Shown here in pieces: positions 36,064 to 40,965 of a stretch of 64,000 nucleotides of DNA. Source of the DNA: Chitinophagaceae bacterium (lineage in GTDB: Bacteria > Bacteroidota > Bacteroidia > Chitinophagales > UBA10324); assembly GCA_947469485.1 (NCBI GenBank), contig CANIPU010000001.1, positions 232,001-296,000 of the forward strand. The letters are read 5' to 3'. Numbering within the stretch: the first letter of the stretch is position 1; each line of letters starts with the position of its first letter. The position numbers and the translations under genes are program-made. Under the pieces are notes generated by a model that did not search any database, was not told the origin of the DNA, and saw only the letters and a list, made by a program, of their open reading frames with translations.

Positions 36064-36636
36064 TCAAAATGGGTTTTCCGGGTTGAATACAAAATTCTTT
36101 GTAGCCTCTTCAAATGATTTATTCAATTTATCTTTTTCAGAAAGAATAATTTTTTCTGATGGAATCATCCAATCAATATTCAACGATGAATCATTATAAG
36201 AAATTCCGCCTTCTGCATTTTTATTATAGAAATTATCACATTTATAAAAAAATAAAGCTGTTGAACTCAATACCGCATACCCATGAGCAAACCCTCGAGG
36301 TACATATAGCTGCTTATTATTTTCTTCTGACAAAATAATACTGAATTGCTTTCCGAAAGTTGGAGACCCAACCCGTAAATCAACTACAACATCTAAGACT
36401 TCACCCTGAATAACGCGTACTAATTTCGCTTGTGCATAAGGATCTAACTGATAATGCAACCCTCTTAAAATTCCGTATGATGAATATGCCTGATTATCCT
36501 GAACAAAGTCTCTTTTAATACCTTGTTCTTCAAAATTTTTTGAATTAAAACTTTCAAAAAAGTAACCCCTGTCATCTCGGAAAACTTTAGGGTTAAAAAC
36601 AAGTAAGCCCGGAAATCCGGTTTCTGTAAAGGCCAT
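36064..36636 (-). CDS. rfbC: dTDP-4-dehydrorhamnose 3,5-epimerase
   Basis: This is a 190-residue cupin-fold enzyme that epimerises C3 and C5 of dTDP-4-keto-6-deoxyglucose. FFESFNSKNF, the catalytic-His block LRGLHYQLDPYAQAKLVRV, VLDVVVDLRVGSPTFGK and VPRGFAHGYAVLS are all diagnostic, and the later SYNDSSLNIDW matches the family C-terminus. Length is normal. It is two bases from the stop of the upstream cpsB-like gene and just before rfbD, so the three are probably one transcript. Confidence 0.96.
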   Translation of the reverse strand: MAFTETGFPGLLVFNPKVFRDDRGYFFESFNSKNFEEQGIKRDFVQDNQAYSSYGILRGLHYQLDPYAQAKLVRVIQGEVLDVVVDLRVGSPTFGKQFSIILSEENNKQLYVPRGFAHGYAVLSSTALFFYKCDNFYNKNAEGGISYNDSSLNIDWMIPSEKIILSEKDKLNKSFEEATKNFVFNPENPF

Positions 36637-36638
36637 AA

Positions 36639-37381
36639 CTATTCCGTTAATGTGTTATTTAAAAGATTTCCTGATTCACACAGCATCTGATAATAATCGT
36701 TTTGAATTGCTTTTTTGAAGGCTTCAAAGTAGCGTTGATTATGCATATCACTTCCGACCCATTCAATCCAATTATTTTTTACGAGCTGATGTGCAAATTT
36801 CTGAACTTTAGGTGAATAAAACCCAACTAAAGAAAGCGCATTTAACTGAAATAAAACACCCATGCTTTTTAATTTTTCCAGAGATTCCAATCCGGATTCT
36901 TGAAAATATGGGTAGCGTTCGGGATGAGCAAGAACAGGCTTATATCCTTTCAAGGTCATTTCAAAAACTGCATCTTCAACTTGTTGGGGTTTACTCATAA
37001 CCGGTAACTCAAATAAAACATATCGTTCTCCAAAAGTCAAAAGCTTCTCCTCTTTTATATAAATTAAAAAATACTCGTCAAAATAATATTCTGCTGCTGC
37101 TTCTAATTCCAATTTAATTCCGGATTGTTTAATCACAGTTTTCATTCTCTCCAATCCTGGAAGTATAGTATCATAAGAATTATTGTAAACACCATTAAAT
37201 ATATGAGGAGTTGTAATCAGTTTTTTATAACCCAGATGATAAAGCTCTGTTATAATTTCTAACGATTCATTCTCAGTACTAACTCCATCATCAATTCCGG
37301 GTATAAAATGAGAATGAATATCAATTTTTACAGGATTGACGAAGTTTTTTTTTTACTGAATAAATCTTTAAAAATCGACAT
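36639..37381 (-). pseudogene. CpsB/YwqE-type PHP tyrosine phosphatase, frameshifted at an A10 run
   Basis: In this assembly only a 171-residue product (TTG 37154 or ATG 37145 to 36639) is open. The missing N-terminus is present just upstream. From an ATG at 37381 the frame reads MSIFKDLFSKKK, then stops after a run of ten A residues (37345-37354 on the plus strand as T10). In the next frame the sequence continues as VKIDIHSHFIPGIDDG, the PHP metal-binding block, straight into the open part. One extra A would restore a protein of about 247 residues, the normal family length. Such phosphatases dephosphorylate tyrosine kinases of capsule export. It could be a sequencing error, a real loss, or a slippage or phase-variable gene. 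Confidence 0.82.
37345..37354 (-). repeat. A10 homopolymer in the cpsB-like gene
   Basis: Ten consecutive A on the coding strand at about codons 10-13 of the phosphatase gene. This run is where the reading frame breaks. It is one of the two longest homopolymers I saw in the window. Confidence 0.95.
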
Positions 37382-37430: not shown

Positions 37431-38513
37431 TTATACAACATCTTGTTCTGCAGTGCTTTTAATAAATTTAAAAACAATTAATCCAATTGCAGTTAAAAAC
37501 AAAACAAAAATTCCTGAGGCAATTGAAACTAATATTACCATAGGAACATTTGTGTCAGTAGAAAAATTAGGATCATCAATTATATCAAGAATTGGTGTTT
37601 GGCTTAACAACGAAACTTTTGCAATTTCAAAATTATTTACAGCAGACGAGTATTGAATGTTAAGCAACGACTGATCTCTGATAGCTGCATTCAAATCAAC
37701 ATAACCCGACTGCCTAACCATATTATTTGAATTATCTTTCAATCTGGCAACTTTAACATCAAGATCTCTAATAGCATTTGCCAATGAATCAACTCTTTTT
37801 TCAGCTAAAGAAAAATTATTAGTATTTAAAGAATACATTTCTCTTAAATAATATGAGCTTGTGTTATTTAGAAGTTTTTTTAAAAAATGTTTTGACAATT
37901 CATAATTTGATGAAACGAACTTCGCTGAGTTAAACGGATTATCTACATTAAATTCAACTGATAGATTTTCATCAAGAATCAAATCATAAATTGTTGTAAG
38001 AATTGAATCTTCTAATCGGGTTAATTTTTTTAAATTTTTATTTTTAAATCTAAACCCTTCATAAGAAAGTCCTTCCCAATCTTCATCAAGTTCATAAATA
38101 TTTATATAATGATTAACTAAAATATCCTTCTTTTTAAAAATCGTGTCTTCTTGCAACAAAGTTTCCTTAACAATTCTTCTTGATTGCATAAGATTTGCAA
38201 AAAAATTGTTGTCATAAGATGATGGTCCACCTGATTTACTTGAAATTCCTAATGATGATGCCAAAGAAAGTGCAGAACTTAGCAAAGAAGAAGAAGCTGA
38301 TTGCCCCTGAACAGTAAAAGTGCAATTTGCTGTATATGTAGTTCCTTTTAAAAAGCAGTAGCCCCAACCTAGTCCAACACCGATTACTAAAGCTATTGTC
38401 AATATCCACCATTTTTGCAATAAATATTTTGCGTTCGTTTTAATGCTTTGCAAAATTTTATTAAAACTGATGTCAACTTCTTCACCAGTATTTTTTTTTT
38501 CTGTTTTTTGCAT
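37431..38513 (-). CDS. Wzz/Wzc-type polysaccharide co-polymerase without kinase domain
   Basis: This is a 360-residue chain-length determinant protein. Two membrane helices (about 36-54 and 328-352) flank a periplasmic domain with a helical region (about 235-300, SLAEKRVDSLANAIRDLDVK). The N-terminal Wzz part contains TCTFTVQG and a Ser-rich stretch typical of Bacteroidota homologues. The cytoplasmic BY-kinase domain of Wzc is absent: the protein ends 12 residues after the second helix. It lies ten bases after the wza-type gene and 49 bases before the phosphatase start. An in-frame A10 run occurs at codons 5-8. Confidence 0.88.
   Translation of the reverse strand: MQKTEKKNTGEEVDISFNKILQSIKTNAKYLLQKWWILTIALVIGVGLGWGYCFLKGTTYTANCTFTVQGQSASSSLLSSALSLASSLGISSKSGGPSSYDNNFFANLMQSRRIVKETLLQEDTIFKKKDILVNHYINIYELDEDWEGLSYEGFRFKNKNLKKLTRLEDSILTTIYDLILDENLSVEFNVDNPFNSAKFVSSNYELSKHFLKKLLNNTSSYYLREMYSLNTNNFSLAEKRVDSLANAIRDLDVKVARLKDNSNNMVRQSGYVDLNAAIRDQSLLNIQYSSAVNNFEIAKVSLLSQTPILDIIDDPNFSTDTNVPMVILVSIASGIFVLFLTAIGLIVFKFIKSTAEQDVV
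38491..38500 (-). repeat. A10 homopolymer at the start of the co-polymerase gene
   Basis: Ten consecutive A on the coding strand, spanning codons 5-8 (Glu-Lys-Lys-Asn) of the Wzz-type gene. Here the frame is intact. The only other run of ten that I saw is in the adjacent phosphatase gene. Confidence 0.95.
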
Positions 38514-38523
38514 TAATTGATGG

Positions 38524-40965
38524 TTATTGAATTCTTGTTAGTAATATATATATAGTTGCGATACCCGTTAAACTAACTGTAAATGTAGAAATTGCCTGAT
38601 TCCAATTTATAGGTTCCTTTGGTCCAGATTTTTGTTTCAATTCCTTTGGCGGAATAGTGGTAGCAACTACTGTTGAAGAATTTTTAACTTTAGGATATAT
38701 ATTAAACAATATAAACTTCCTACATCCATTAACATTCTGTCCGGGATTAACAACATAAGTTCTGCTTCTGATAGCTCTTTTTTCAAACCCTAATCCATAA
38801 TGTTTAATGTAAAATTTTGCTCTTTTACCTTTAGTAAATGGAACATTTATTTGTTTTAATGAATCAATATATGGGAAGCGAATAAGCCCGGTTATTGTTA
38901 CAACATTTGATTGTTTGGGTATTGTTATTTCGTCACCTGGTTTTAAAATATAATCGAATTTAGAATTTGGTTTTTTTAGTGCTTTATCCAAGTGAGAAAG
39001 GATTATACCTTTCCCGTTTTCTTTACGGTATATATAACCATCTTCTGAATAAGCTGATGCATTTAATCCGCCTGCTCGGTTTAATAATGATGTCCATGTT
39101 TCTAATTTATCAATCATAACATAATTACCAGGGTATTGCACTTCCCCTGAAACAGAAACCATTGTTTGCTTATCATAATCAGATGAGACACGAATAATTA
39201 CCTGATCAGAGGGTTGCAATTCAAACCCAGCGGATGCATCATCTAATGTCAAATCCTTATTTATTGAGATAGATTTTATTATAACCGGAACAGCAGAAAT
39301 TCCACTGCCTTTTTTTACCTCAAGAATTCTGGAAATTTCTATTCGGTTACTTGCTGCTTCAGGTTTTAATCCTCCTGCAAAATATAATGCATCTTTTAAG
39401 CTCATCCCATTTCCATATAAATAATCGCCTGGAGATCGAACAGAACCTGTCACACTAACAGTAAGATCATCTTTGAAAGAAGCTTTATTAAAAAAGTTAA
39501 TTACATCTTCGTTCTTTAACAATATATTATCAGGTGAATTTTTACTTTGAATAATAGCTGAAGGAGAAAAAGAAATATATTGTTTAGATAAATCTTCATT
39601 TGTTCTGATTATATATCCTTTATTATACAAGGCATCATTTCGTAATGGATTTTTGTCTAATACATCTGAAATTCGCTGACCGTTTTTAAAACTATATATT
39701 CCTGGTGCTGTTACCGGACCATTAATTTTAATCTGATTAGTAACTAAATCTGGAACGGTATTAATCGTAATCTTATCGCCGTTTTTTAAATTAAAATCTC
39801 CTTTATTCTTTAATAAACTATCAAGATTTACACTTATTAATTTATTCTCCAAACCTTCATACCTCTGAATAATTACATTATTCATATATGCATTAGGTGT
39901 TACACCTCCCGCAAATTTTAATAGCGAAACAAGGTTTTCGTTATCTAATAACTCAAATCCATCTGGCCGTAAAACTTCCCCGAAAATCCTAACTACCTTA
40001 CTGCTAAGAGGAATAAAAATGTAATCATTATTTTGGAGATAAAAATCCTGCTTTGAATCAGGATCTAACAAAAACGAATAAACATCTAGTGTTTTAATTG
40101 TTTGACCATCCCGTTTTATATAGATTTTTCTAAGCGACCCAATGTTAGTAGGACCTGATGCAGACATCAGGGCATTAAATGCAGTATTTGTTGCCGGCAT
40201 TGTATAATTACCTGGTTCAAAAACCTCGCCTACAATGTTCACCCCTATCACCCGGCTATAGACAAGCGAAACATCAAGGCTGGAATTACTCATATCAATA
40301 ACAGTAGAAAACCGACCTTTAATAAGTTTTTTTGCATCTTCAAATGCTAATCCTTTTAAATATATCCTCCCTGTCTGAGTTGGCAAAATCGCTCCTGACT
40401 GGTCAATCGTATAACTTCCACTATAGCTACTATACCCCCAAATGTTAATAGTTAATTGGTCTCCGACACCCAGAATATAATTATCTGGTGCTTGCATATC
40501 AGTTGAATGATTAAAAGTAGATATGTTTTTATCTCGAAAAAAAGATTGACCAAATATTATGGCAGGGGGTAATTCGGGCGTTTCTTTGTTTTCTTGGTGA
40601 TTATTATCAATTATATTAGAAATTGTACTTGGAGAAATATTAGGGGAATTATTAATAACCGGTGTTTGACTATTTAAATTATTCTCCTGCTTTGATTCAG
40701 ATTGGTTTACTGATGGATTTATGCTTATAGTTCCACTTTGTATCTGTGGTAATACTTGATTGGCAATATTTTGAGCATCAGTAGTACTTATACCAAGCAT
40801 TTGAAGTTTACTTGCATTCGCTTGAATCAGAGCCTGAACATTTGTGCTATTTAGAGACGAGGAAGTTGAATTACCTGATGATTGTTTAATGGTATCTTGT
40901 GCTTTTACGCAAGAAATTGTTGAAATCAATGCCAACGATAAACAAAGGCAACTGAAAATTTTCAT
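38524..40965 (-). CDS. wza: Polysaccharide export outer-membrane protein, Wza-like with multiple SLBB domains
   Basis: This is an 813-residue exported protein, more than twice the length of E. coli Wza. A signal peptide ends near residue 22 (VKAQ); a Cys at 19 might be lipidated. A Gln/Asn/Ser-rich linker spans about 30-150. The polysaccharide export domain begins with YILGVGDQLTINIWGYSS (about 163). Successive SLBB-type repeats follow: VNIVGEVFEPGNYTM, VRIFGEVLRPDGFEL, IKINGPVTAPGIYSF, VSVTGSVRSPGDYLY, VSVSGEVQYPGNYVM and a last partial one. A C-terminal hydrophobic helix may cross the membrane. It should form the periplasm-spanning export channel with the Wzz-type protein encoded next. Confidence 0.93.
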   Translation of the reverse strand: MKIFSCLCLSLALISTISCVKAQDTIKQSSGNSTSSSLNSTNVQALIQANASKLQMLGISTTDAQNIANQVLPQIQSGTISINPSVNQSESKQENNLNSQTPVINNSPNISPSTISNIIDNNHQENKETPELPPAIIFGQSFFRDKNISTFNHSTDMQAPDNYILGVGDQLTINIWGYSSYSGSYTIDQSGAILPTQTGRIYLKGLAFEDAKKLIKGRFSTVIDMSNSSLDVSLVYSRVIGVNIVGEVFEPGNYTMPATNTAFNALMSASGPTNIGSLRKIYIKRDGQTIKTLDVYSFLLDPDSKQDFYLQNNDYIFIPLSSKVVRIFGEVLRPDGFELLDNENLVSLLKFAGGVTPNAYMNNVIIQRYEGLENKLISVNLDSLLKNKGDFNLKNGDKITINTVPDLVTNQIKINGPVTAPGIYSFKNGQRISDVLDKNPLRNDALYNKGYIIRTNEDLSKQYISFSPSAIIQSKNSPDNILLKNEDVINFFNKASFKDDLTVSVTGSVRSPGDYLYGNGMSLKDALYFAGGLKPEAASNRIEISRILEVKKGSGISAVPVIIKSISINKDLTLDDASAGFELQPSDQVIIRVSSDYDKQTMVSVSGEVQYPGNYVMIDKLETWTSLLNRAGGLNASAYSEDGYIYRKENGKGIILSHLDKALKKPNSKFDYILKPGDEITIPKQSNVVTITGLIRFPYIDSLKQINVPFTKGKRAKFYIKHYGLGFEKRAIRSRTYVVNPGQNVNGCRKFILFNIYPKVKNSSTVVATTIPPKELKQKSGPKEPINWNQAISTFTVSLTGIATIYILLTRIQ

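Follow-up and report, generated by a model that had tools for sequence, protein, structure and literature searches.

A genus-wide frame break at an A10 run in a putative capsule phosphatase gene, and its probable dependence on transcriptional slippage

Background

The locus described here raises the question of whether a phosphatase gene that is broken at a run of ten A residues (A10) is an artefact or a relic, a switch, or a working gene whose full product is obtained by slippage. Slippage-dependent genes are easily annotated as pseudogenes, and to our knowledge those whose main product depends on transcriptional slippage are few. The gene lies in a window (the whole stretch of 64,000 nucleotides analysed) of a Chitinophagaceae genome, which is available as a 3.08 Mb draft assembly of 45 contigs.

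The split gene and its neighbourhood

The gene is of the CpsB/YwqE type (PHP) of tyrosine phosphatases and occupies positions 37381-36639 on the minus strand. According to a preliminary description of the window, its frame is split at the A10 run, and reading the frames on both sides of the run (T10 on the plus strand, 37345-37354) proves this correct. From the ATG at 37381, the start frame reads MSIFKDLFSKKKTSSIL and ends with a TAA after 17 codons (37328..37381, minus strand). The phosphatase body is in the -1 frame (36639..37352, minus strand, stop included), which is open from 37352 to 36639, encodes 237 amino acids, begins with KKNFVNPVKIDIHSHFIPGIDDG, and carries DIHSHFIPGIDDG.

The 17-codon frame ends in a stop that overlaps the beginning of the body frame. 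Such an arrangement could permit coupling, so that the body might be translated alone, by re-initiation past the short frame or from a non-standard start. This explanation is hardly credible, because the body frame has no ATG, GTG, or TTG before the metal motif (the first such codon is at 37154, well past the motif), candidate ATT codons are not common to all species of the genus compared, and intact relatives retain an N-terminus resembling the upstream frame.

The body matches the Pfam family CpsB_CapC with an E-value of 3.9e-43 and 148 bits (cut-off 27), and a profile built from it recovers YwqE (5e-34) and CpsB (5e-25), both phosphatases of solved structure. The AlphaFold model of the body (mean pLDDT 91) shows a confident PHP fold with YwqE and CpsB as the top fold matches, and its metal and active-site motifs show no change across the genus and two relatives outside it. 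By family profile, motifs, and modelled fold, the body is a CpsB/CapC PHP-type tyrosine phosphatase with putative activity. It resembles CpsB and YwqE (PDB 2wjd, 3qy6) in fold, in these motifs, and in its setting in a polysaccharide cluster. In contrast to the gene here, those of the CpsB/YwqE type form a single open frame in the 78 other loci examined.

Upstream in the cluster are a wzz-like gene (37431..38513, minus strand), of which the Wzz match is below the cut-off and in which the family search detected no kinase domain, and a wza-like polysaccharide export gene (38524..40965, minus strand) with SLBB and Poly_export matches. Directly downstream is an rmlC-like gene (36064..36636, minus strand), named by sequence resemblance and not by family search, which is close enough to the phosphatase gene for translational coupling. 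The phosphatase gene thus sits between wzz and rmlC with wza upstream, and this order is kept in the congeners.

Conservation of the break and constraint on the body

The locus was compared with those of five other species of the genus, and the gene is readable in four of them, with protein identities of 83-88%. All four have exactly A10, equally far from the metal motif, with an identical frame offset and an upstream frame that a stop ends after 17 codons. Therefore, including the genome of the window, the frame break and the A10 are kept in 5/5 species with a readable locus, and no extra stop or frame break is present in any of the five bodies. In the fifth congener, loss of the gene was considered and rejected; its wza export gene runs into the end of a contig, so that this species counts as missing data.

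Outside the genus, the phosphatase of the 78 loci is encoded by one open frame, with an ATG, GTG, or TTG in frame ahead of the metal motif. The typical N-terminus of these intact relatives is MGLFSKLFGKKK, which resembles the 17-codon frame. Since the gene is intact outside the genus, the break is a derived trait common to the genus, and the 17-codon frame is the old N-terminus. In another genus of the family (G014), the phosphatase gene has A9 at the same linker, 39 bases before the metal motif and in frame, possibly representing an intermediate state.

Over the five species, the mean dN/dS of the body is 0.049 at a mean dS near 2, and such ratios are only rough because the synonymous sites are saturated. 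The body has the lowest ratio among the cluster genes compared, the others being 0.071 for wza (four species), 0.168 for wzz, 0.082 for rmlC, 0.079 for rmlD, and 0.078 for the epimerase gene. To judge from these values, the body is maintained as a working protein and is no pseudogene. That the downstream part of the gene is well preserved is borne out by the catalytic motifs, the dN/dS of 0.05, and the PHP-fold model.

The preliminary description had also considered an assembly error, and had named accumulating stops and decay in relatives as evidence against regulation. Homopolymers are error-prone and the genome is a draft, but the same A10 break is found in five separate genomes, which contradicts an error. 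In the close relatives in which decay was checked, the bodies are intact and constrained as above. An assembly error or a decaying pseudogene is therefore very improbable.

A10 runs elsewhere in the genomes

Long A runs are scarce in this genome. The window contains 7 A9 runs against 28 expected from shuffles, and the 3.08 Mb genome contains only 13 A10 runs. A pattern search for runs of A10 or longer in six genomes, four of which were covered fully or almost fully, yielded about 100 contexts, among which only the phosphatase run and a run in dnaX recur throughout the genus; one more pair is common to two species and looks intergenic. Two in-frame A10 runs serve as controls. Where one of them lies in an NDP-sugar gene, the congeners have A3-A5; the other, in a MazG-like gene, is shorter or broken up in those congeners that were read, although the Lys residues persist. 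AAA is used in all five species at 32 of the 53 conserved Lys positions. Codon usage alone thus leaves three AAA Lys codons likely enough, and the case for selection therefore rests on the frame break and the control runs.

A second A10 in the cluster (38491-38500, 1.1 kb upstream) is in frame at codons 5-8 of the wzz-like gene and is found in this genome only. It suggested coordinated slippage within the cluster, an idea rejected on account of the absence of the run from the congeners. Three A10/T10 runs also occur within 540 bases (C20:2523-3062) in one 636-codon open frame, the product of which is likely a membrane protein.

These comparisons bear on the phase variation that had been proposed along with slippage, in which the run would lengthen and shorten in the population and switch the gene on and off. 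A runs of such length mutate readily in DNA, and phase variation often affects capsule genes (PMC3711429). The run, however, is exactly A10, the off length, in all five assemblies, with no variation in length or alternation of on and off states between these species, whereas the length of other A10 runs is free to change from one species to the next. The strong constraint on the body is also ill-suited to a gene that is off everywhere. Phase variation is therefore quite improbable. Of the two options, it is slippage that the species comparison favours, as does the dnaX run described below.

The A10 run of dnaX

The gene dnaX is the textbook case in which RNA polymerase slippage on poly-A gives rise to two products, in Thermus (PMC1088944, PMC5009743), and a survey predicted dnaX recoding with ten A's in several genera. 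The same survey measured frameshifting in E. coli with Mg-chelatase cassettes and obtained 63%, 40%, and 10% for 11, 9, and 7 A's, respectively (PMC3711429). In the present genus, the dnaX run is A10 in five species and A11 in one. In the genome of the window (C9:87024-88811), it is A10 at codon 385; a stop follows immediately in the -1 frame, just as a short gamma-like product would require.

The run is near-universal in the order. A pure run of A9-A11 is present in 28/28 readable dnaX genes (one truncated gene was left out), 21 of them with A10, in the region of codons 372-436 (numbered from the start of the open frame). Its codon phase drifts, being phase 0 in nine genes, phase 1 in five, and phase 2 in fourteen. 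Length is thus kept while phase is not, as would be predicted of a polymerase slip site, whereas a ribosomal site could do with seven A's in a single phase or with the stronger A_AAA_AAG. This sequence argument for the polymerase is strong but not absolute, because any run of at least nine A's holds A_AAA_AAA in every phase.

Ribosomal frameshifting

The full protein might also be made from unslipped mRNA by programmed -1 ribosomal frameshifting at A_AAA_AAA in the run, alone or in addition to slippage. An A_AAA_AAA heptamer is indeed present within the A10 in the right phase for a -1 shift. A weak possible hairpin of 7 pairs (37320..37340, minus strand), a candidate stimulator, begins four bases past the run, and 94% of its cells are paired over the five species. 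It displays no two-sided changes and ordinary energies in these species, however, and its 3' arm encodes a conserved Val-Asp, while no consistent RNA structure was seen upstream of the run and no Shine-Dalgarno-like stretch is visible there.

Furthermore, all ten A's are invariant though seven would suffice for the ribosome, none of the five species uses the stronger site A_AAA_AAG, and shifting in E. coli is much weaker at A_AAA_AAA (PMC5009743). The conserved dnaX runs of the same genomes, moreover, fall in all phases. Considering both sides, we regard ribosomal frameshifting as unlikely, but as an explanation to be taken seriously.

Transcriptional slippage and phosphatase dose

Production of the full phosphatase probably depends on programmed transcriptional slippage at the A10, a process that we infer from the sequence comparisons and the parallel with dnaX. 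Genes of this kind are recognised by a homopolymer of A or T, roughly nine or more bases long, where the frames meet (here A10 in 5/5 species), and by selection across species for the break and the run, both of which are kept here while the control runs are not. By analogy with dnaX, the same polymerase should slip on the phosphatase run also.

Under transcriptional slippage, RNA polymerase would slip on the A10 and produce transcripts with mixed run lengths. Those of template length would yield only the 17-residue peptide, and those in which the run length joins both frames would yield the full phosphatase. The result would be a set, reduced share of phosphatase, with wza and wzz of the same cluster read normally.

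The genome encodes a single clear tyrosine kinase of the Wzc type, which would be the likely target. This kinase has 819 amino acids and a C-terminal tail rich in tyrosine and glycine, and it is encoded in a different cluster (C8, L289:5352-7811) with its own export gene adjoining. No phosphatase gene was seen beside it among the neighbouring open frames read, and only one phosphatase match was found in the genome.

The efficiency of slippage, the target kinase, and any regulatory benefit are likewise inferred. Holding the phosphatase at a low, set level relative to the export proteins could plausibly be beneficial, and slippage at the A10 may in this way tune capsule export; the data agree just as well with the mere tolerance of an old frame break that slippage rescues. 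More broadly, and with slightly less than even confidence, we suggest that slippage of RNA polymerase on A10 runs may be a standing expression mechanism in the order, near-universal in dnaX, and that one genus has recruited it to set the capsule phosphatase dose against that of the export genes.

The genus-wide case of capsule control, together with the phase-independent dnaX run, constitutes a testable system for asking whether slippage sets a dose or is merely tolerated. It also cautions that a gene which looks 'broken' at an A10 run in a draft genome may still work.

Comparison with known systems

The phosphatase gene is, putatively, a new client of a known mechanism. In a literature search, with subscription papers mostly outside its reach, no earlier report of slippage was found for a capsule phosphatase or in this order.

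The nearest precedent is tssM1 of Citrobacter rodentium, in which RNA polymerase slippage on an A11 leads to a longer protein (PMC4256274). The poly-A run lies ahead of a stop in both genes, and the longer product would likewise be made by slippage in the phosphatase. The tssM1 case differs in that disruption of the run by AAG was shown to abolish slippage, while the phosphatase case is known from sequence. The short form of TssM1 is itself a large functional protein that is needed alongside the long one, whereas the short phosphatase form has 17 residues. Unlike tssM1, the phosphatase carries its break genus-wide.

In Thermus thermophilus dnaX (A9, PMC1088944), as in the phosphatase gene, at least nine A's are in the coding strand and the products differ by the frame after the run, and the dnaX of the present genus has a run like that of T. 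thermophilus. The direction is reversed, however: the long product of Thermus dnaX comes from the template frame and the short one from slippage, whereas slippage would be needed for the long product of the phosphatase gene. The mxiE gene of Shigella flexneri (PMC1088944) resembles the phosphatase gene in having two overlapping frames, which in mxiE are joined only by the slippage that its longer product requires. It differs in being a regulator gene with a U run in the mRNA, and the run of the phosphatase gene consists of A's near codon 10.
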